64,000 bases of DNA from contig NZ_CP061379.1 in assembly GCF_015624505.1 (NCBI RefSeq), positions 5,456,001 to 5,520,000 on the forward strand, in the 5' to 3' direction. The position numbers and the translations under genes were made by a program. This document shows positions 5,125 through 42,451 of the stretch, one piece after another. A model generated the notes under the pieces. The model was not told where the DNA came from. It did no database searches and saw only the letters and a list, made by a program, of their open reading frames with translations. Source of the stretch: Bradyrhizobium commune. Lineage in GTDB: Bacteria > Pseudomonadota > Alphaproteobacteria > Rhizobiales > Xanthobacteraceae. How positions within the stretch are numbered: position 1 is the first letter of the stretch; every line of letters starts with the position of its first letter.

Positions 5125-6848
5125 TCAGATAGAGGCCGTTTCCGCACTCATCCCGGCCGCCACACCCTCCGCAAGATGCCGCCCAGCGATATACCCGAAC
5201 GTCAGCGCCGGCCCGAGTGTGATCCCTGGCCCAGGATAGTTGCCGTTCATGATCGAGCCCATGTCATTGCCGCAGGCATAGAGCCCCGCGACCGGCGTGC
5301 CGTTCTCGCGCAACACGCGTGCCTGCGCATCCACTTTCATCCCAATGGCGGTGCCGAGATCGGCCGGATAGATCCGCATCGCGAAGAACGGCGCGCGGAC
5401 GATGGGCGCGACGCAAGGGTTCGGCCTGTGAGCGGCATCGCCAAGGTGGCGCTGATAGATAGTGCTGCCGCGGCCGAATTCAGGATCGCGGCCCTCCTTT
5501 GCATCGGCGTTGTAATTTGCAACCGTCGCTGTGAGCGCGGGCGGCTTGATGCCGATCTTCGCCGCGAGCTGCGCGATGTCCGCCGCCTCGATCAATTCGC
5601 CGCTCGCGACATAGCGCAGAATGTTGCGCGTAAACGGCTTGATGCGGCCGACGCCGTAGCTCCACAGGAATTGCCGGTCGCAGATCAGATAGAACGGCGG
5701 TCCAGCTCGCCATTGCCGTTGCGGAGCATGGCAAACACGAACTCGTGGTAGGACAGCGCCTCGTTGACGAAGCGACGGCCGGCCGCGTTGACGGCAATCA
5801 GGCCGGGCTTGGCGCGGTCGGTGACCGTATGCGGGAAGACGCCTCGGCTGCCGTCGGCGCGGGTGAACAGCGAGGCCGGCACCCAATAGGCCGGACTCGT
5901 CGCATCGGCGTTGAGCGCAGCGCCGGCCGCGGTCGCGAGCCGAAGCCCGTCGCCGGTGCCGGACGTGCTGGTCGCCGAGACAAAGCCTACAGCCGGCGGA
6001 AAGAAACGTTTGCGCAAGGCCGGATCGTGCGAGAAGCCGCCGGTCGCCAGGACAACGCCACGGCGCGCGGCAATCAGGCGATCACGTGAGCCGTGGCGGA
6101 TCACCACACCGCTGACGCGATCACCCTGCATCGAGAGATCCTCAACGTCAGTGCTGAAGAGGATCTCGACCTGCCGCGCCAGCAGTGAGGCGTATAGCCG
6201 TGCCGCGAGCGCATTGCCGAGATGCAGCGTCGTGCCGCGCGGCGAGCGAAGCCGCTGCAACGCGTATTCGGAGACGAGCCTGGCCGCGCGCAGGGTCGAG
6301 CGCAGCGATTTTCCGGCCTTGCGTAGATGCGGGATGTCGAGCCGGTTGACCATCATCCCGCCGAACAGCGTGAACTCCGGCAGCGGTGGCCGCAGCCGCG
6401 CGAAGTTTTTGCCCAGCCGCATGCCGTCGAAAGCAACCGGCTCCAGCACACGCCCGCCGGACGTCGCGCCCAGCCGTTCCGGATAATAATCGGGATATGC
6501 TTTCACAGGCTGGAGCCGCACCTCTGTCCTGTTCTCGAGATAGGCGACAGCCTCTGGCCCGCGCGCAAGGAAGGCGGCGCGCAGGCTGGCATTGGCGGGC
6601 TCGGGCACCGTGCTCGACAAATATTGAACGGCGTCAGCGACGCTGTCGGAGAGGCCCGCCTCTCTCATCTTGGGATTGGCGGGAATCCAGACCATGCCGC
6701 CGGACCAGGCGGTGGTGCCGCCGACAAAGGCGGTCTTCTCGATCAACAGCACGCGAAGGCCTTCGGCGGCGGCCACCGCCGCAGCCGTCATGCCGCCCGC
6801 GCCGGCACCGATGACAATGACGTCGTAGATCTCATGCGCCGGCATCAT
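5125..6848 (-). pseudogene. FAD-dependent oxidoreductase (ketosteroid dehydrogenase/fumarate reductase family), frameshifted
   Basis: Two minus-strand frames together make one flavoprotein. The N-terminal frame (to 5685) begins at the double ATG 6848/6845, after a GGGAAA ribosome site. It carries the dinucleotide fold VIGAGAGG and ends NGNGELDRRSI-stop. The C-terminal frame resumes with PPFYLICDRQF and ends with the family's second FAD-binding segment (NGNYPGPGITLGPAL). The frames meet near 5695-5702, where one missing base in the CGCCG run would explain the break. The full product would be about 573 residues, normal for the family. It is either a recent pseudogene or a base-calling error. 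The substrate is unknown; steroid-like or enoate substrates are typical of the family. Confidence 0.8.
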
Positions 6849-8473: not shown

Positions 8474-10072
8474 TCAATCGAACAGATTGGCAAGGCGGCT
8501 TTTCATCTGATCAGCGATGTAGAGCGCAAGCGCCTGGATGGTGGACGTCGGATTCACGCCGCCCGAGGTGACGAAAATGCTGCCGTCGACGATGAAGAGG
8601 TTTTTCACGTCGTGCGCGCGGCCCCATTCATTGACGACGGACCTCTTGGCATCGGTGCCCATCCGCGCGGTACCGAGCAGGTGCCAGCCGCCCCACGGGA
8701 TCGGCGAGTTAATGCAGATATCGGTCGCGCCTGCCATTTCCAAAACCTCGCGGCCGCGCGCGAGCGCATGGTCCATCATCTTCCGGCTGTTCTCAGAGAT
8801 CGTGTAGTCGATCTTCGGCGCGGGAATGCCGTGGCTGTCCTTCAACACCGGATCAAGCGTGACCTGATTATGCTCCTCGGGCAGGTCCTCACAGATCGCG
8901 GAGAAGCCGAGCCTGTGGCCGTTGAGCTTGCGAAAAACGCGATGGTGGTCGGCGCCCCAGGGCAGAATGCCCTTCTGCTCGCTGACGACAGCCTCGAACA
9001 CGGGACCTGCGCCACGCACGAACTGGACGCCGTAGCCGCGCACGAAGCCGCGCGACAGGTCCGTGTCGTACCACTCCTTGCTCCACAGGCAGGTCGGCGG
9101 TGCGCGGTTAGAGTCGGTCGGCTCCTTCACATAGCCGTAGATCTGCGCATAGGGATGGAACATCAGGTTCTTGCCGACGAGCCCCGACGAATTGGCAAGG
9201 CCGTTCGGAAAGCGGCTCGACTTCGAGTTGAGCAGCAGCCGCGGCGTGCCGACGCCATTGCAGGCGATGATCACGACATGAGCCGGCTGGAACTGCTCGA
9301 CGCCGTCCTTGTCGTAATAGACCACGCCCGAGGCCATGCCGTTCTCGTCGGTGGTAATCTCCCGCACCCGGCAATGGGTGCGGAGCTCGACGCCGGCGCG
9401 GACCGCGTGCGGCCAATAGGTGATGTCGGTCGAGGACTTTGCGCCTTGCGCGCAGGCCGGCGTGCAATGGCCGAGATTGATGCAGCGCGCACGGCCCTCA
9501 TAATCCATGGTCGCGACCGTCGTATCCGACGGCCACCAGTGCCAGCCGAGCTTGTTCATCGCCTTGCCGATGATGGCGCCGGACAATCCCATCGGCTGCT
9601 GCGGCATCGGCGGATGTGTCAGCGGCGACAGCGGATCGCCTGATAACCCCGACGTACCCATCATGCGGTCGTTCTCTTCGAAGAACGGGGTCAGCGCGTC
9701 GTAGTCGATCGGCCAGTCGTCGGCGACGCCGTCCAGCGTCTTCACCTTGAAATCGGAGGGATGCAGCCGCGGCCAGTGCGCGGTGTACATCACGGTCGAG
9801 CCGCCGACGGCATTATAGTTCACGACCTTGATCGGCGAATTGTCGTCATTGATCGGATAATCCTCGGGCCGGCCGCGGACGTTGGGGCTCGACGACCATT
9901 CGCCGTAGAACTTGGCCTCCCAGTCGCGGCCCGTGCTCGGATATTCCGCCGGGTTCATCCAGCCGCCCTGCTCCAGGCAGAGAATGTGCATCTTGGTCTC
10001 GGCCAGCGACCACGCGACCGCGGCGCCAGACGCGCCGGCGCCGATGATCAGGACGTCTACGGGATCGTTCAT
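8474..10072 (-). CDS. GMC family FAD-dependent oxidoreductase (gluconate/choline dehydrogenase type)
   Basis: A 532-residue flavoprotein that oxidises an alcohol or polyol group. The Rossmann motif VLIIGAGASGAAVAW lies at the N-terminus. The C-terminal GMC domain has the catalytic-type His in GGWHLLGTARMG and the second conserved site in GGVNPTSTIQALA. The ATG at 10072 is preceded by GGGAGGAAAG, a strong ribosome site, and gives a start just before the FAD fold; further upstream extension adds only implausible sequence. No signal peptide is visible. It forms a two-gene operon with the subunit-3-like gene that follows. The substrate cannot be deduced; it groups by motifs with sugar-acid dehydrogenases rather than cholesterol oxidases. 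Confidence 0.87.
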   Translation of the reverse strand: MNDPVDVLIIGAGASGAAVAWSLAETKMHILCLEQGGWMNPAEYPSTGRDWEAKFYGEWSSSPNVRGRPEDYPINDDNSPIKVVNYNAVGGSTVMYTAHWPRLHPSDFKVKTLDGVADDWPIDYDALTPFFEENDRMMGTSGLSGDPLSPLTHPPMPQQPMGLSGAIIGKAMNKLGWHWWPSDTTVATMDYEGRARCINLGHCTPACAQGAKSSTDITYWPHAVRAGVELRTHCRVREITTDENGMASGVVYYDKDGVEQFQPAHVVIIACNGVGTPRLLLNSKSSRFPNGLANSSGLVGKNLMFHPYAQIYGYVKEPTDSNRAPPTCLWSKEWYDTDLSRGFVRGYGVQFVRGAGPVFEAVVSEQKGILPWGADHHRVFRKLNGHRLGFSAICEDLPEEHNQVTLDPVLKDSHGIPAPKIDYTISENSRKMMDHALARGREVLEMAGATDICINSPIPWGGWHLLGTARMGTDAKRSVVNEWGRAHDVKNLFIVDGSIFVTSGGVNPTSTIQALALYIADQMKSRLANLFD

Positions 10073-10272
10073 CGAGCTTCTTTCCTCCCGCCCTCGCCGC
10101 TTCCCGGGCGATTCGGCCACCACGACTTGCAAGGCCTGCAAACGATAGGATCAGAGCGACCAGCGAGTAAAGACACAGGTCCGGAATGTCGCACTTCGCC
10201 GGGCGCAGACCATTGGTGTTGCCACATCCGGATGCTAGGAACGACGGGAAAGAGCAATCCCAGCGAGACCGC

Positions 10273-11061
10273 ATGTCCTTCCAGATTTCCTTTGCCGCCG
10301 CACGCGCTGTCGCGCTCGTCTTGTTTCTCGCTCTATCAGGAATTTGGACCCCGTCCGGACCAGCCTCGGCGCTGACCGCAGCTGCGACCGTCCGGGACGC
10401 CAACTCGATCCAGCTCGGTGACGTCACCTACCGGCTCGACGGCGTCGATGCGCCGGAGCTGGACCAGGTCTGCATCGACGACCACGCCGATCCCTGGACT
10501 TGCGGGATCGAGGCCCGCGAACAGCTCACCAAGCTCATCAACGGCAGATCCGTGCATTGCGACGACGTTGGCCCTGAGAAGAACTTTGGCAAGCGCCACC
10601 GCGCGATCTGCACGGCCGAGGGCGACAAGGTCACGTTGAACGAGCAGCTGGTGAAGCTCGGCTATGCCATCGCCCGCGAGCCGATCAAGGCCAACGTCAA
10701 GCCGGCGGCGGATGAGGCCAAGACGGCCTCGGCCGGGATCTGGAAGGGTTGTTTTGTTGGACCGCAAGAATTCCGCACCGGCAAGAAGGACGGCACGCTG
10801 CTGGGCGCCGCCTGCCGTTCCGACCGCGACAAGGAGATCCGCGCGGTGCTGTTTCCGGACGAGCTGACGGCGCCGCCAAGCTGCGCCATCAAGGGCAAGC
10901 TCGCGGTGCGCGCCCGCGTCACCGGCAATATCGGCATCTATCATTTGCGGGGCTGCCCGAGCTATGCCGCGACCTCGAAGCCGGACCGCTGGTTCTGCTC
11001 GGAGGACGACGCGCAGGCCTCCGGCTTCCGCAAGGCCTACAATTGCCGGCGGCCAAAGTGA
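10273..11061 (+). CDS. Secreted thermonuclease (SNase)-family protein
   Basis: A 262-residue protein with an N-terminal signal peptide ([21 protein letters not shown], cleavage likely near PASA). A staphylococcal-nuclease-like beta-barrel follows: the strand [12 protein letters not shown] with the expected Arg and Asp residues, then CGIEAREQL and [11 protein letters not shown] cysteine-rich C-terminal extension ([26 protein letters not shown]) is typical of rhizobial members and should form disulfides in the periplasm. The probable role is hydrolysis of nucleic acids outside the cytoplasm. ATG 10273 gives a proper leader; earlier in-frame ATGs would bury it. It is convergent with the cyo operon, and a terminator follows at 11235. 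Confidence 0.85.
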
Positions 11062-36698: not shown

Positions 36699-37100
36699 AT
36701 GAAACACACTTTCGCCGCCGGCCTGACGTTGCTGCTCGGAATGCTCGGCCCGGGCGCCGGATACGCGCAATCCGCGCCACCACCGCCGACGCCGACCACG
36801 AAAATCCTTGCGATCGGCACCGTGAATCCCGGTGTCGACCCGGCAAAAGTGTTCGCGACCCTGCCGAACGAGGTTCGCGACACCGTGGACCTCTATCTGA
36901 ACGGCAAGATCGACCAATGGTATTCGCTGGCAGACCGTCGCGGCGTGGTGTTCCTGCTGAATGTCACGGATGTCGCGGCCGCCCATGAGATGCTCGAAAA
37001 GCTGCCGCTGGGCCAGGCCCATCTGATGAGCTTTGAGCTGATTCCGATCGGACCGCTCAACCCGCTGCGCGCGTTGCAGGGGATGAAGGCAAATCCGTGA
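36699..37100 (+). CDS. Exported protein with muconolactone isomerase-like fold
   Basis: A 133-residue protein. A signal peptide (MKHTFAAGLTLLLGMLGPGAGYAQ) is followed by a Pro-rich linker and a small ferredoxin-like domain (AKVFATLPNEVRDTVDLYLN, GVVFLLNVTDVAAAHEML, AHLMSFELIPIGPLNPL) resembling muconolactone isomerase/YCII-like proteins. An isomerase with a leader is unusual. It follows the MarR gene by 36 bases, so it probably belongs to the same regulon. Function unknown. Confidence 0.7.
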   Translation: MKHTFAAGLTLLLGMLGPGAGYAQSAPPPPTPTTKILAIGTVNPGVDPAKVFATLPNEVRDTVDLYLNGKIDQWYSLADRRGVVFLLNVTDVAAAHEMLEKLPLGQAHLMSFELIPIGPLNPLRALQGMKANP

Positions 37101-37153
37101 AGTCGCGCGGTCATTGCGGGACCAGCGCGGCATCGCTGCCTTCACCCACCCGA

Positions 37154-37291
37154 TCAGTCCGATGCCGTCTTGGCCGAGACCGACTGGCTCGTGCGGGTGC
37201 CTTCGCCGGTGTCGAGGCGATAGAGAGCCACCGCGCCGCCGGCCAGGACGACGACGATGACGACGATCGCGATCACGTTCTTGCTGCTCAA
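37154..37291 (-). CDS. Small single-pass membrane protein (45 residues)
   Basis: Starts at TTG 37291 after GGAGGATG. The product is SSKNVIAIVVIVVVLAGGAV then ALYRLDTGEGTRTSQSVSAK, i.e. a single hydrophobic helix at the N-terminus followed by a short polar tail. No function is recognised. A candidate EcfG-type stress promoter lies upstream on this strand: GGAAC (complement of 37344-37348), a 17-base spacer and GGTT (complement of 37323-37326). It is divergent from the CYTH-CHAD gene. Confidence 0.6.
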   Translation of the reverse strand: MSSKNVIAIVVIVVVLAGGAVALYRLDTGEGTRTSQSVSAKTASD

Positions 37292-37322
37292 GCGAACATC
37301 CTCCGGCTGATACGCTGGTTGT

Positions 37323-37348
37323 AACCGATCACGAGCGTCCCAAGTTCC
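37323..37348 (-). promoter_or_regulatory. Candidate EcfG (general stress sigma factor) promoter
   Basis: On the minus strand GGAAC-N17-GGTT, one base off the alphaproteobacterial EcfG consensus GGAAC-N16/17-CGTT. It ends 31 bases before the TTG start of the small membrane protein, a suitable distance. Confidence 0.45.
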
Positions 37349-37468
37349 GTGAAGTTTCCATGACGTCCACGCAGCGTTTTCCCGGCTACGATTCCGCGCG
37401 GGAATGTCGGCCAACAATCGGAACTTCTCGCCGTTGCGCTGCTTTGATTCCCGCAACGGAAGCCGCCC

Positions 37469-38980
37469 ATGACGACAGAAACGGAACTGAAATTCCGCCT
37501 TGCGCCGCGTCAGCTCTCGACCGTTTTGCGCAATGGCGCATCGCGCAGGCATGGCGACCCGACCGGGCAGACACTGATCTCGACCTATTACGACACGAAG
37601 AAGCACAAGCTGAGGCGGAACGGCTTGGTGCTCCGGGTCCGCAAGATCGACGACCGGTACGTCCAGACCGTGAAAGCGCGCGGCCTCACCGACGTGACGC
37701 GCGGCGAATGGGAGAACGAGGTCGCCGGCGCCAAGCCTGAGCTCGCGAAAACAAGACATACGCCGCTCGACGACATTGCCACCAGAAACTTTTCCGGCAA
37801 GTTGAAGCCGGTCTTTCAGACCGACGTCCGCCGCACGGCGCGGATGCGGCGCGTCCGGAGAAGCCGGATCGAGCTCGCGATCGACCAGGGCCGGATCACC
37901 GCCGGCCGCCGCTCCCGTCCCGTCGCCGAACTCGAGCTGGAGCTGAAGTCCGGGCAGATCGCCGACCTGTTCAGACTGGCGCGGATCTTTGAACGCAAGG
38001 CAGGGGCCGAACTCGATCCGCGCTCGAAGGCCGAGCGAGGTTTCGAGCTCGTGGCGGGGAACGGCCGGAGCGCGCAACGCGCCGAGCCGATCCGGCTCAC
38101 GCACGAGGTTTCACCGCAAGACGCTTTCCGCATCATCGCGCATTCGGCGCTTCGTCAGGTGACCACGAACGCCGATCCGGTGCGTAACAAGGATTCCGAG
38201 GGAGTTCATCAGATGCGCGTCGGCCTGCGCAGGCTGCGAGCGGCGATCTCGCTTTTCGACGACATCATGCCGCGGGTAGGCACGGGCCGGATCAAGGCCG
38301 AGCTCAAATGGCTCACCGGCGAACTCGCGCCGGCACGCGAGATCGACGTCTTTGTCAAGGACAGCATTGAACCGCTTCCCGAGCAGGGCGTCCCGCGACG
38401 CGGCGCCGGCGCGATACGCAAGAAATTCTCCGCGCAACGGATGGCAGCCTTCCGGCGTGCCGGCGAGGCGGTTGCGTCGGCGCGCTATCGCCGCCTGCTG
38501 ATCGACGTCGCCGAATGGATCGAGGCGATGCGGGCCAGCGCCGACGACGGCCGCTCGATCGCCGCCTATGCCGCCGAGATGCTCGACCGGCACACCAGGA
38601 AGGTGCGAAAGCAGGGCAAGCAGCTCGCCGAGCTCGATCCGCGGCGGCGCCACAAGCTGCGCATCAGGATCAAGAAGATCCGCTATGCCGTCGATTTCTT
38701 CAAAAGCCTCTACCGCGATCGCGACCAGAACGAGCTTGCGGATTTTTCCGGCCGGCTGAAGCAGCTGCAATCGGCGCTGGGATCGCTGAACGACTTCATG
38801 GCGCATCGCGAGCTGGCGACGAAGGCAGCGTTGGCAGCGCCGCCTGCGAACCGGCGCGCCCAGGCTTTCGCATCCGGCTTCATTGTCGGCCAGGAGCGCG
38901 AGGCGGCTCACGGCCTGATGAAGAATGCCGCGCGGGAGCTGCGTCGATTGCATCGGCTGCGGGTCGAGCCGCGCAAGTGA
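37469..38980 (+). CDS. CYTH and CHAD domain protein (triphosphatase/polyphosphate-binding)
   Basis: A 503-residue two-domain protein. The N-terminal CYTH domain begins with the ExExK metal and phosphate motif (Glu4, Glu6, Lys8) and has the paired basic strands LVLRVRKIDD and FQTDVRRTARMRRVRRSR of triphosphate tunnel enzymes. The C-terminal half is a CHAD helical domain (VHQMRVGLRRLRAAISLFDD, HKLRIRIKKIRYAVDFFKSL) with many conserved His/Arg/Lys that bind polyphosphate. Known relatives hydrolyse inorganic triphosphate. Downstream are an avidin-like gene and a Pit phosphate transporter, fitting a phosphate-storage role. Confidence 0.92.
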   Translation: MTTETELKFRLAPRQLSTVLRNGASRRHGDPTGQTLISTYYDTKKHKLRRNGLVLRVRKIDDRYVQTVKARGLTDVTRGEWENEVAGAKPELAKTRHTPLDDIATRNFSGKLKPVFQTDVRRTARMRRVRRSRIELAIDQGRITAGRRSRPVAELELELKSGQIADLFRLARIFERKAGAELDPRSKAERGFELVAGNGRSAQRAEPIRLTHEVSPQDAFRIIAHSALRQVTTNADPVRNKDSEGVHQMRVGLRRLRAAISLFDDIMPRVGTGRIKAELKWLTGELAPAREIDVFVKDSIEPLPEQGVPRRGAGAIRKKFSAQRMAAFRRAGEAVASARYRRLLIDVAEWIEAMRASADDGRSIAAYAAEMLDRHTRKVRKQGKQLAELDPRRRHKLRIRIKKIRYAVDFFKSLYRDRDQNELADFSGRLKQLQSALGSLNDFMAHRELATKAALAAPPANRRAQAFASGFIVGQEREAAHGLMKNAARELRRLHRLRVEPRK

Positions 38981-39030
38981 CCTCGCAGAAAAAAGCGACC
39001 TTGCAGAAACAAGCGACCTTGGAGAAACCG
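38977..39030 (+). repeat. Three tandem 18-bp units between the CHAD and avidin-like genes
   Basis: Three copies of GYGACCTYGSAGAAAMMR-like 18-mers run without gaps (38977-38994, 38995-39012, 39013-39030). The stop codon of the CHAD gene lies in unit 1. Unit 3 differs by GCAG to GGAG, which creates the ribosome site GGAGAAA for the avidin-like gene. Confidence 0.8.
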
Positions 39031-39032
39031 GC

Positions 39033-39401
39033 ATGGCATGGGTCGGCAGTTGGCGAAATCAATTCGGATCGATCCTGCGCATCATCAGCGATGCGGAGGG
39101 CCGCATCGAGGGAACATTCGAGACCGCGCTCGAAGACAGCGGCTTTTACGGTCAGACAATCCAGGTCATCGGATTTCACAAGGGCAATTGCATCGCCTTC
39201 GTCGCCGCAGGCGCGTCTCCGTCAGGCGACCGTGTGGTGTCATACACGGGCCTGTTGCGCCACGGGAAAATGGAGACCGCCTGGTTCGTGGTCGCCGACC
39301 AGGCGCTGAGCGCCGCCGGCGAAGGCGAACCCGCGAAGCTCAAGCCGTTGAACTGGTGGCGCGCCGTGACAACGAACGTCGACACCTTCGAGCGGGCCTA
39401 G
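39033..39401 (+). CDS. Avidin-family (bradavidin-like) protein without signal peptide
   Basis: A 122-residue beta-barrel protein of the avidin/streptavidin family. Aligned to streptavidin, biotin-site positions are kept as Asn9 (N23) and Ser13 (S27) in WRNQFGS, Trp84 (W108) in TAWFVV, Trp109 (W120) in NWWRAV and Asp117 (D128) in NVDTF. Tyr43, Ser45 and Trp79 are replaced by Phe29, Thr31 and Phe56. Avidins are normally secreted, but this one starts MAWVGSWRNQ at the fold itself, so it should be cytoplasmic. ATG 39033 follows GGAGAAA within a tandem repeat. It lies between CYTH-CHAD and Pit genes on the same strand. Confidence 0.85.
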   Translation: MAWVGSWRNQFGSILRIISDAEGRIEGTFETALEDSGFYGQTIQVIGFHKGNCIAFVAAGASPSGDRVVSYTGLLRHGKMETAWFVVADQALSAAGEGEPAKLKPLNWWRAVTTNVDTFERA

Positions 39402-39457
39402 ATCCCGCCTCCGATCCGTAAATTCCTGGCCAACACCCTGCGCAACGAGCGATCCCC

Positions 39458-41077
39458 ATGTCCGATCTCGCCCTCAACGATGCACAGCTGACCTCCGAAG
39501 CCACCGCCAGGCCCGACCTGCACCGCAAGCCGCATGTGAGCATGGTGGCGGTGTTCCTGCTCTTCCTCGTCAGCGGGATCGGCTACGCCGCCTACGGCAT
39601 CTTCACCGACACGCACAGCGTCGGCGAGCCGCTGGCGCTCACAGCAATGCTCCTTCTCGGCGTCGCCCTCATGATCGCGCTCGGCTTCGAGTTCGTGAAC
39701 GGCTTTCACGACACCGCGAACGCGGTCGCGACCGTCATCTACACGCACAGCCTGCCGCCACTGACCGCGGTGATCTGGTCGGGCCTGTTCAACTTCCTCG
39801 GCGTGCTCGTATCCACCGGCGCGGTCGCCTACAGCGTCATCACGCTGCTGCCGGTCGACCTGATCCTGCAAGTCGGCAGCACCGCCGGCTACGCCATGAT
39901 CTTCGCCTTGCTGATTGCCGCCATCATCTGGAATCTGGCGACTTGGTCGATGGGCATTCCCAACAGCTCGTCGCACTGCCTGATCGGTTCGATCATGGGC
40001 GTCGGCATCGCCAACCAGTTGATGGCACCCGCGGGCCAGGCCACGTCGGGTGTCGACTGGTCGCAGGCAATCAGCGTCGGCAAGGCGCTGCTGTTCAGCC
40101 CGGCGGTCGGCTTCGTCCTCTCCGCCCTGCTGTTGCTCCTGTTGAAAGTCGTGGTTCCCGTGCGGAAGCTGTACGAGGAGCCGAAGGGCGCGACGCCGTG
40201 GTGGATCCGCGGCATCCTGATCCTTACTTGCACCGGCGTGTCCTTTGCGCATGGCGGCAATGACGGCCAGAAGGGCATGGGCCTGATCATGCTGATCCTG
40301 ATCGGCGTGGCGCCGACCGCTTATGCGCTGAACCGGACCATGCCGGAATCGAGCACGCCGGCCTTCGTCGACGTCACCGGCAAGGCCAAGTCGGTGTTCG
40401 CAGCTCAGGCGCAAGGTGCGCAGGCGGGCAACGCCGACGACGCGCGAGGCCTGATCGGCGATGCGCTCAAGACGCGGAATCTGAACCGCCCGGAGGTGTT
40501 CGCTGCGCTGGCTGTGCTTTCGGACGACATCGCGAACGGGGTGAAGAACTATGGCTCGATCAGCCGCATTCCGGCCGCGGCGACGGCGAACATGCGCAAC
40601 GACATGTATATGGTGTCCGACGCGGTCCGCCTGTTGCCGGAAGCCGGCGCCAATCTCAACGCGGGCGACGGCGCGATCCTGAAGCAGTATCGCGCCGACC
40701 TCGAGCATGGCACGCGCTTCATTCCCAACTGGGTCAAGGTCTCGGTCGCGATCGCGCTTGGGCTGGGCACCATGGTCGGCTGGCGGCGGATCGTCGTGAC
40801 GGTCGGCGAGCGCATCGGCAAGCAGCATCTCACCTATGCGCAAGGTGCCTCTGCCGAGATCGTGGCCGCCGGAACGATTTTGGGGGCCGAGTTCTACGGC
40901 ATGCCGGTGTCCACCACGCACATCCTGTCGAGTGGTGTTGCCGGCACCATGGCAGCCAACGGCTCGGGGCTGCAAACGGCCACGATCAGGAACATCGTGC
41001 TGGCGTGGATCCTGACACTGCCGGCCGCGATGCTGATCGCAGGCTGCCTGTATCTGCTGTTCCGCATTGTGGTCTGA
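39458..41077 (+). CDS. pit: Low-affinity inorganic phosphate transporter (Pit family)
   Basis: A 539-residue membrane protein of the PiT family. The first family signature GFEFVNGFHDTANAVATVIYT is near residues 75-95, and the duplicated second half has HGGNDGQKGMGL. It transports phosphate as a metal-phosphate complex with protons or sodium. A soluble central loop of about 150 residues (SSTPAFVDVTGKAKSVFAAQ onward) splits the two halves, longer than in E. coli PitA but seen in other proteobacterial members. It follows the avidin-like gene by 56 bases. Confidence 0.93.
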   Translation: MSDLALNDAQLTSEATARPDLHRKPHVSMVAVFLLFLVSGIGYAAYGIFTDTHSVGEPLALTAMLLLGVALMIALGFEFVNGFHDTANAVATVIYTHSLPPLTAVIWSGLFNFLGVLVSTGAVAYSVITLLPVDLILQVGSTAGYAMIFALLIAAIIWNLATWSMGIPNSSSHCLIGSIMGVGIANQLMAPAGQATSGVDWSQAISVGKALLFSPAVGFVLSALLLLLLKVVVPVRKLYEEPKGATPWWIRGILILTCTGVSFAHGGNDGQKGMGLIMLILIGVAPTAYALNRTMPESSTPAFVDVTGKAKSVFAAQAQGAQAGNADDARGLIGDALKTRNLNRPEVFAALAVLSDDIANGVKNYGSISRIPAAATANMRNDMYMVSDAVRLLPEAGANLNAGDGAILKQYRADLEHGTRFIPNWVKVSVAIALGLGTMVGWRRIVVTVGERIGKQHLTYAQGASAEIVAAGTILGAEFYGMPVSTTHILSSGVAGTMAANGSGLQTATIRNIVLAWILTLPAAMLIAGCLYLLFRIVV

Positions 41078-41203
41078 GCCGCGCGGGTCCAGTTCTTACC
41101 CGCACGAAGGCCACATCCGGAATAAGGGGGCTGCTACTGTCGCCATTGGCACCCGCCCTCCAATCATGTAACCCCACCCAAAAGCTTTTCGGGACGGGAC
41201 GCT

Positions 41204-42451
41204 ATGGGGACCGCTGCCACTGACGACGCGGGAGACGGCAGCCGCGCATTGATCTTTGCGCTGGTGGCGCTTGCCTGCGGGCACATGCTCTCGACATTGC
41301 TGCGCACGATTCCGGCCCTCAGCCTCGATTTGATGGCGGCGGATTTCCGCATCGAGCCGCAGGCGCTGGCAAGCCTCACCTCGGTCTATCATTTTGCTTT
41401 CGCCGCGTCGCAGATCCCGGTTGGCGCCGCGATGGACCGGTTTGGCGTGCGGCCGGTGTCGCTCGGCCTGCTGGCGGGAACCATCGTCGGCGCGATCGCG
41501 TCGGGGTTCGCGACCGGGCCTGAGAGTTTTGCATTCGGGCAATTGCTGCTGGGGATCGCGACGTCGGGCATGCTGATGTGCCCGATGACGCTGGCAGCCA
41601 AGCAATTGTCGGCGGCGCGCTTCGGCCTGTGGTCGGGCGCGATCCTGTCGATCGGCAACATAGGGATGCTGCTGTCGTCGAGCCCGCTCGCCTTCGTGGT
41701 CGATCATTATGGCTGGCGCGCCGGGTTCTGGATCGCTGCTCTCGGCGGCGTCGCGGTGGCGCTGGCGGTACTCGCGCTGGTGCCGAACCAGAAGGCCGAG
41801 CACCAGGACGCCTCCTCGCCGCTGGCGCAGATGATCGAGGTGCTCAGGCTCGGCCTGTCGCGGCCGCTGCGCGGGCTGATCGCGCTGGCGCTGGTGTCGC
41901 TTGCGACCTCGCTGGTGCTGCGCGGGCTGTGGGGCGGGCCGTGGCTGATGCAGGTGAAGGGCCTGTCGCGGGTCGAGGCCGGCAACCAGCTCGGCGCCTA
42001 TACGCTGGCGATGATCGCGGGTCCGCTGCTGCTGGGCATGATCGACCGCAAGGTCGGCCGCCGCCGCGAGCTCGTGGCCGGCGCCCACGCGACCGCGGCG
42101 CTGCTGGTCGCGCTGATGGCGCTCGGCGCGCCGCATTTTCCCGTTGCATGGCTGTTCGGCGTATCCGTCATGCCGCCGCAATACGACCTGGTTCTGTTCG
42201 TGCTGATTGGCCTTTCGACCTCCGCGCAGCCGCTGCTGTTCGGGATGTGCCGGCAGCTGGTCGACGCGCAAACCGCCGGCAAGGCGCTGGCCGCGGTGAA
42301 CCTCGCCTTCTTCCTCGGCACGGCGCTGATGCAGTCGATCACCGGCGCGGTGGCGGCATTTGCGGGACTGCCGGCGGTGCTGCTGTTCATGGCGGCGGCG
42401 CTGCTCGCGGGGGTGACGATCTTTTTGACTTACACGTCATCGCGTTCGTAG
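41204..42451 (+). CDS. MFS transporter
   Basis: A 415-residue permease with twelve predicted helices. The MFS loop is recognisable in GAAMDRFGVRPVSLGLLAGT between helices 2 and 3, and a second, weaker one in GMIDRKVGRRRELVAG. The substrate is unknown; it resembles nitrate/nitrite- or drug-type MFS members only loosely. It is followed directly by a palindromic repeat and then by an M20-type peptidase gene. Confidence 0.87.
   Translation: MGTAATDDAGDGSRALIFALVALACGHMLSTLLRTIPALSLDLMAADFRIEPQALASLTSVYHFAFAASQIPVGAAMDRFGVRPVSLGLLAGTIVGAIASGFATGPESFAFGQLLLGIATSGMLMCPMTLAAKQLSAARFGLWSGAILSIGNIGMLLSSSPLAFVVDHYGWRAGFWIAALGGVAVALAVLALVPNQKAEHQDASSPLAQMIEVLRLGLSRPLRGLIALALVSLATSLVLRGLWGGPWLMQVKGLSRVEAGNQLGAYTLAMIAGPLLLGMIDRKVGRRRELVAGAHATAALLVALMALGAPHFPVAWLFGVSVMPPQYDLVLFVLIGLSTSAQPLLFGMCRQLVDAQTAGKALAAVNLAFFLGTALMQSITGAVAAFAGLPAVLLFMAAALLAGVTIFLTYTSSRS

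Follow-up and report, generated by a model that had tools for sequence, protein, structure and literature searches.

The 122-residue protein encoded at positions 39033-39401 (plus strand) of a 64,000-nucleotide stretch of DNA from Bradyrhizobium commune (contig NZ_CP061379.1; the whole stretch is called 'the window' in what follows) belongs to a distinct avidin subfamily that has no export leader, and whose pocket combines a conserved ureido end with a rebuilt tail end. We propose that the protein would reside in the cytosol, bind biotin or a biotin-type ureido compound and thereby conserve or buffer the vitamin, and we assign a probability of about 45% to this statement taken as a whole. The gene stands between those of a CYTH-CHAD protein and a Pit-type phosphate transporter, and the original prediction made for this stretch of DNA had linked the ligand to phosphate metabolism; in view of the gene neighbourhoods described below, this link is to be dropped.

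Family membership and the missing export signal

With 30.1 bits (E = 6.8e-7) the protein scores above the curated cut-off of 24 for the avidin family in Pfam (PF01382), and it is the only match to this family in the whole single-contig genome of 7.62 Mb. Together with an AlphaFold2 model exhibiting the eight-stranded avidin barrel (predicted local distance difference test score, pLDDT, of 95), this shows the protein to be an avidin, with the barrel as its modelled fold. Among 149 candidates, 135 were homologues at E ≤ 1e-3, and the subfamily is under purifying selection, the ratio of nonsynonymous to synonymous substitution rates (dN/dS) being 0.10-0.155 between the window's gene and the seven relatives for which a value could be computed. 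Identity to known avidins is about 24% for bradavidin II (PDB 4ggr, 4ggt) and wilavidin (7ouq, 7our, 7p8y), 20-23% for agroavidin (8amh, 8an6) and, over the structural alignment, 13% for the tamavidins (2zsc), which are fungal and bind biotin tightly (PMC6238071). As the protein contains a single cysteine, it has no disulphide bridge between loops L3,4 and L5,6, in which it differs from bradavidin II and wilavidin. Bradavidin (core-bradavidin, 4bbo) is described as having a 25-residue leader, a Brad-tag and a disulphide, and rhizavidin (3ew1, 3ew2) as a dimer with a disulphide (PMC5398887).

The absence of a signal peptide, which had been predicted from the window alone, was borne out, and a leader missed upstream was rejected. 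Only two residues precede the tryptophan of the first strand, so that there is no room for a leader of the secreted bradavidin or bradavidin II type, and the in-frame stretch ahead of the start codon (from 38925), which overlaps the end of the CYTH-CHAD gene, is not hydrophobic: its 12-residue Kyte-Doolittle maximum is 0.76, compared with 2.33-3.21 for three bradavidin-type leaders. Nor is this upstream stretch shared among 79 subfamily loci from named genomes. An in-frame upstream start is absent in 28 of these, adds fewer than 15 residues in 19 and adds more in 32, and when the last 60 upstream residues of the 32 longer stretches were scanned, a 12-residue mean of at least 1.6 was reached only in L102 (1.88), a moderately hydrophobic segment that we take as chance. 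All leader calls in this work rest on hydrophobicity, judged by eye for the classical avidins, and not on a trained predictor. Within the genus, Pfam matches reveal two other avidin classes, comprising 20 bradavidin-like (L002-L021) and 10 bradavidin II-like loci (L022-L031), and in contrast to the 122-residue protein a hydrophobic leader was seen in 27 of these 30, including eight of the ten of bradavidin II type. Three of the secreted-type genes (L021, L025 and L026) look decayed and show no clear leader, with an internal stop codon reported in L025. Judged from its sequence, the window's protein is probably cytosolic.

The premise that avidins are secreted proteins goes too far: in a survey of 2021, which reports putative avidins from Bradyrhizobium and Mesorhizobium, a leader is predicted for about half of the putative bacterial members (PMC8033661), and tamavidins are described as cytoplasmic (PMC6238071). 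Leaderless avidins as such are already known, and the variant described here lies in the pocket changes together with the absent export signal. The same survey names unverified clades (Bradavidins3, Metavidins and others) and contains strain WSM3983 in its Table 1 (PMC8033661); this strain carries a subfamily gene (L034, also L194) plus a classical avidin. Novel avidin-like sequences from Bradyrhizobium, Mesorhizobium, Burkholderia, Catenulispora and Actinocatenispora, mentioned without data in PMC5398887, may include the leaderless subfamily. We found nothing in the open literature on the function of this subfamily or on its CYTH-CHAD neighbourhood.

The ligand pocket

The pocket was mapped by aligning a profile of the subfamily with 11 avidins of the bradavidin-like and bradavidin II-like classes (hhalign probability 98.3, E 1.5e-14), and the residue numbers of streptavidin are those which we take to apply. 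Five ligand-site residues are kept, namely Asn9 (streptavidin Asn23), Ser13 (Ser27), Trp84 (Trp108), Trp109 (Trp120) and Asp117 (Asp128), and six are changed: Phe29 replaces Tyr43, Thr31 Ser45, Gly60 Trp79, Arg67 Ser88, Val69 Thr90 and Tyr71 Trp92. Hence the canonical biotin-site residues Tyr43, Trp79, Ser88 and Thr90 are all absent. This agrees with the original prediction, which had listed the five kept residues and the losses of Tyr43, Ser45 and Trp79, and the pocket is indeed remodelled. The region around Trp79 is the least certain stretch of the mapping; a first assignment by eye of Phe56 to this position was rejected, since the profile and wilavidin alignments place Gly60 or a nearby gap there and pair Phe56 with Trp75. 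On the plus strand of the window, the codons of Asn9-Gln10-Phe11, which include the ureido oxygen contact as judged from the alignment to bradavidins, occupy 39057-39065; those of Phe29-Gly40 (FETALEDSGFYG), which span the Phe at Tyr43, the Thr at Ser45 and a conserved Asp-Ser-Gly-Phe (DSGF) motif in the L3,4 loop, occupy 39117-39152; and those of Asp117-Thr118-Phe119 occupy 39381-39389.

Residue counts were taken from 161 aligned sequences of at least 115 residues, the window's protein included, which represent for the most part its close clade. The ureido end is nearly invariant in this set (Asn9 in 157, Ser13 in 160, Thr31 in 159, Asp117 in 158, Trp84 in 161 and Trp109 in 160), and so are the replacements Phe29 (159), Val69 (161) and Tyr71 (157) and the loop residues Asp35, Ser36 and Phe38 (160 each), with Gly60 found in 142. 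A wider set of 79 named loci, weighted over 26 avidin clusters, gives frequencies of 1.0 for Asn9, Ser13, Trp84 and Asp117, 0.99 for Phe29, 0.97 for Asp35 and 0.88 for both Ser36 and Phe38, with 0.62 for Tyr71 (the remainder being Phe), 0.58 for Val69 and 0.47 for Gly60. Taken together, these counts indicate a fixed ureido end and a rebuilt tail end, the rebuilding being most uniform in the rhizobial clade. Ser36 pairs in the profile alignment with Ser38 of bradavidin, a residue reported to move onto biotin (PMC5398887). The L3,4 loop is shortened and devoid of the DSGF motif in three loci (L089, L109 and L111, from two Chitinophaga and one Williamsia bin), which form a long separate branch.

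That the substitutions point to a ligand other than biotin, as had been suggested, was weakened by comparison with avidins that do bind biotin, even though the remodelling itself stands. The Phe in place of Tyr43 is shared with agroavidin, according to the alignment, for which PDB entry 8an6 is titled as a biotin complex; the Thr in place of Ser45 corresponds to Thr35 of biotin-binding chicken avidin, and bradavidin, likewise a biotin binder, has Phe in place of chicken Trp70, the equivalent of Trp79 (PMC5398887). None of these three changes taken singly therefore excludes biotin, although the residue at the Trp79 position is Gly here and not Phe. As to Trp92, the authors of PMC5398887 state that all bacterial avidins known to them in 2017 have Trp at this position (Trp75 in bradavidin), from which the present subfamily departs; with respect to bradavidin, the protein has Phe for Tyr31, Val for the Thr that contacts the sulphur of biotin and Tyr for Trp75. 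In combination, the changes, including Val for Thr90 and the lost Trp92, may well lower the affinity for biotin, as far as can be judged from sequence.

Proposed role and rival explanations

In the mechanism that we favour, the barrel would hold biotin, or a ureido compound of biotin type, in the ureido cradle formed by Asn9, Ser13, Thr31, Asp117, Trp84 and Trp109, and owing to the altered tail end of the pocket, binding would probably be weaker or more reversible than that of streptavidin. The likeliest job would then be to conserve or buffer the vitamin in the cytosol, after the example of rhizavidin from Rhizobium etli, an avidin that has a leader and is not known to have an equivalent of Trp120. 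A rhizavidin mutant lost growth on biotin-poor subculture and regained it when biotin was supplied, which its authors read as biotin storage (PMC8914248). A cytosolic avidin is not toxic to its owner in principle: both E. coli and Ashbya tolerate tamavidin 1, and the authors of that work suggest that biotin is not freely available in the cytoplasm of these hosts (PMC6238071). B. commune itself probably imports biotin, because its genome has one BioY importer, its best BioB match (35 bits) falls far below the cut-off of 225, and its best BioA match (340) falls below the cut-off of 405, the latter being less certain than the former. There are seven biotin-carboxylase-type matches of at least 461 bits, three of them over the accC cut-off. 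Its gene content predicts an organism that is auxotrophic for biotin and imports it, and in which the biotin enzymes would share the compartment expected for the avidin.

Several points weigh against the proposed vitamin buffer. Across the genus the avidin gene is not tied to auxotrophy, which hence does not explain the subfamily: BioB is over the cut-off in 29 of the 33 genomes with an intact avidin copy and in 76 of the 113 others (Fisher p 0.027, uncorrected for ancestry), BioY in 26 of the former and 75 of the latter (p 0.20), and one or the other in all 33, so that a link that fits the window's own genome was rejected for the genus. Broken copies in the genus show that the gene is dispensable. 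The joint replacement of the Trp79, Thr90 and Ser88 equivalents could abolish biotin binding altogether, and the storage role of rhizavidin, with its leader, would be no proof of a similar role for a cytosolic protein. The ligand, affinity, cytosolic location and role given here are what we infer for the protein. As a separate observation, B. commune differs from most of the genus sampled in its biotin supply, BioB being over the cut-off in 105 of 146 genomes.

Two other readings retain a cytosolic avidin and assign it a different task. It is conceivable, but rather unlikely, that the subfamily has shifted to some other ligand within the cell, one that resembles urea at its head and differs in its tail, for which a tail-blocked biotin such as biocytin or a biotinyl protein would be a candidate. 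The near invariance of the head residues, the uniform way in which the close clade has rebuilt the tail end (Gly60, Val69, Tyr71, Asp35, Phe38) and the persistence of Asp35 and Phe29 in the wider set would all suit such a shift, and an acid near the expected position of the biotin carboxylate could disfavour free biotin. However, the lower frequencies of Val69, Tyr71 and Gly60 in the wider set mean that the tail end does not follow a single plan, the single replacements have the parallels in biotin binders described above, and no co-conserved neighbour hints at a ligand. A step further, one might speculate that a separate cytosolic class of avidins, spanning at least four phyla and with the urea-binding end kept and the tail end rebuilt, either buffers the vitamin reversibly or acts as an intracellular receptor for a ligand that is not free biotin (for example a tail-blocked biotin or another cyclic urea); we hold this to be improbable as it stands, and if true it would put the avidin fold to a use that is not yet described in the literature that we found. 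A little less probable again is a trap for grazers, in which the protein would be stored in the cytosol and, once a nematode or amoeba has eaten the cell, sequester biotin in the gut of the grazer, as in the case of the tamavidins. Tamavidin 1 is cytoplasmic, is toxic to nematodes, strongly blocking their propagation when eaten, and is harmless to the E. coli and Ashbya producing it (PMC6238071). A leaderless protein would need no export for this purpose, and the patchy presence with losses (33 intact copies in 146 genomes of the genus, plus remnants) suits an accessory defence gene.

The remaining readings deny the protein a function or tie it to its neighbours, and both fare far worse. A functionless relic of a once-secreted avidin is very unlikely: the genus does contain broken or partial copies (G019, G050, G098), fragments (G010, G018) and avidin remnants beside CYTH-CHAD genes (G018, G067, G109), yet the 33 intact copies, the low dN/dS and the occurrence of named members in Pseudomonadota, Actinomycetota, Bacteroidota and Verrucomicrobiota speak for a maintained gene. 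Least probable of all is that the protein binds a small phosphate- or polyphosphate-related molecule in concert with the CYTH-CHAD protein and Pit. Its basis is that the three genes share one strand, with short gaps and, by consensus scans only, neither a promoter-like nor a same-strand terminator-like site, and that CYTH-CHAD adjoins the avidin gene in part of the loci. Of 96 named loci found, the best 80 were kept, some of which stop at a contig end; CYTH-CHAD lies directly upstream in 15 of these 80, all of them from Bradyrhizobium, and nearby in 18 of the genus loci (the best 30 matches in 146 genomes, each with 1.5 kb on either side), the window's own among them and one truncated. An intact Pit gene, however, follows the avidin gene in only one of the 80 named loci (L034) and begins beside it in only four of the 30 genus loci (G000, G009, G105 and G116); as G116 and L034 come from the same genome (WSM3983), with identical coordinates, the intact triple was seen in four distinct genomes, all of this genus. 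Conversely, CYTH-CHAD is followed directly by Pit, without avidin, in G055, G128 and G133, and inspection by eye of the 69-87 bases between the stop codon and the Pit start in these three found no avidin sequence. When the CYTH-CHAD and Pit proteins of the window were used as tblastn queries, neither gene was placed beside avidin outside one Bradyrhizobium lineage among the 80 named loci, and the pocket itself is of ureido type. A conserved operon with phosphate genes is rejected on these surveys, and the neighbourhood of the three genes was not found beyond close relatives. Because neighbours vary and CYTH-CHAD-Pit pairs exist without it, the avidin gene is best regarded as a separable, stand-alone accessory gene, which lies behind CYTH-CHAD in one Bradyrhizobium lineage and here also before Pit with no functional tie to phosphate; that it adjoins two phosphate genes seems to be a coincidence and not a functional clue.

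A widespread leaderless class in which the urea cradle is intact and the tail pocket rebuilt makes the role of bacterial avidins for their owners testable, with biotin buffering or storage in the cell, deterrence of grazers and a new ligand as candidate roles. The subfamily may also supply small avidins that lack disulphides and bind reversibly.

Distribution, neighbouring genes and features of the locus

A profile of the subfamily matches 40 of the 146 genus genomes, 33 of them with copies intact by span; the others are the broken or partial copies and fragments named above and two classical avidins (G046, G107). Across the order 11 of 297 genomes match, the window's own genome and three weak matches included, and among 5.8 billion proteins the profile found 558 matches at E ≤ 1e-3 (120 listed), which perhaps include other avidin classes. 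The best avidin match among the named loci has 89% identity (L034), and a plasmid search gave three distant matches from Rhizobium (39.7% identity). With 24 of its 77 inner branches well supported, the tree of the subfamily does not prove transfer.

Viewed from the CYTH-CHAD side, a match at 1e-80 is present in 67 of the 146 genomes, and among the best 30 of these loci an intact avidin gene adjoins CYTH-CHAD in 17, a remnant in three and none in ten. Pit lies beside the avidin gene in four of the 17, and no intact Pit does in the other 13. The relatives that were examined include members of Mesorhizobium, Ralstonia, Labrys, Actinomycetota and Bacteroidota, and in these neither CYTH-CHAD nor Pit occurs near the avidin gene; the one CYTH-CHAD match found by tblastn in L074 (29%) is more than 5 kb away. 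Neighbours outside the lineage comprise an ABC-F-type ATPase, GDPD, FMN reductase, LacI, a histidine kinase, Ku, ribose-phosphate pyrophosphokinase, GH127, a WYL regulator and a sigma factor, among others; these assignments come from Pfam searches with 40 chosen open reading frames (ORFs) from 26 loci, which gave mixed functions, including one GDPD and one ribose-phosphate pyrophosphokinase, and several ORFs without a match. A cluster for acidomycin-type antibiotics beside an avidin gene is a context described for Streptomyces (PMC13111796); none of the 40 ORFs belongs to a non-ribosomal peptide synthetase cluster. Clustering of ORFs over 80 loci (27 avidin clusters) did not reveal another conserved partner: leaving out avidin itself and ORFs overlapping it, the widest same-strand family spans five clusters (six loci) at scattered distances, and other families around the gene span 4-6 clusters. 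The widest family overall consists of 140 opposite-strand ORFs from 57 loci in 20 clusters, which we take for shadow ORFs.

Within the window, the CYTH-CHAD gene (37469-38980, plus strand; 503 residues; Pfam CHAD 5.4e-51, CYTH 4.3e-19), the avidin gene and the Pit gene (39458-41077, plus strand; 539 residues; Pfam PHO4 2.1e-84) are consecutive, separated by 52 (38981-39032) and 56 bases (39402-39457), just as had been reported. Position 37154, previously taken as the start of the cluster, is instead the end of a minus-strand ORF. The N-terminal ETELK of the CYTH-CHAD protein is a motif of the ExExK type, which we take to be catalytic in CYTH proteins. The genes upstream are of NmrA-like, MarR and MIase-like type, although the MIase-like match does not reach its Pfam cut-off, and downstream of Pit, again according to Pfam, lie MFS and M20 peptidase genes. 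Consensus scans of 37100-41300 gave no promoter-like sites; the two terminator-like sites that they gave are on the minus strand and not more numerous than in shuffled sequences, and the avidin gene may be co-transcribed with its neighbours.

An 18-bp unit repeated 3.1 times (38974-39028, plus strand; Tandem Repeats Finder score 82) begins where CYTH-CHAD ends, fills the gap almost up to the start codon of the avidin gene and falls within the open frame upstream of that codon; no such array was seen in the CYTH-CHAD/avidin gaps of three other loci (L154, L158, L161). Remnants of Pit that have lost a large internal part lie downstream of CYTH-CHAD and avidin at L046:6934-7077 and L138:784-927, which indicates that Pit was lost at this site in some relatives. 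Finally, in L043 (Bradyrhizobium sp. Rc3b) a stub of the avidin start comes after CYTH-CHAD (9004-10662), and about 4 kb from this stub, at 5990-6367, lies an intact avidin gene, so that the gene seems to have moved or been duplicated.

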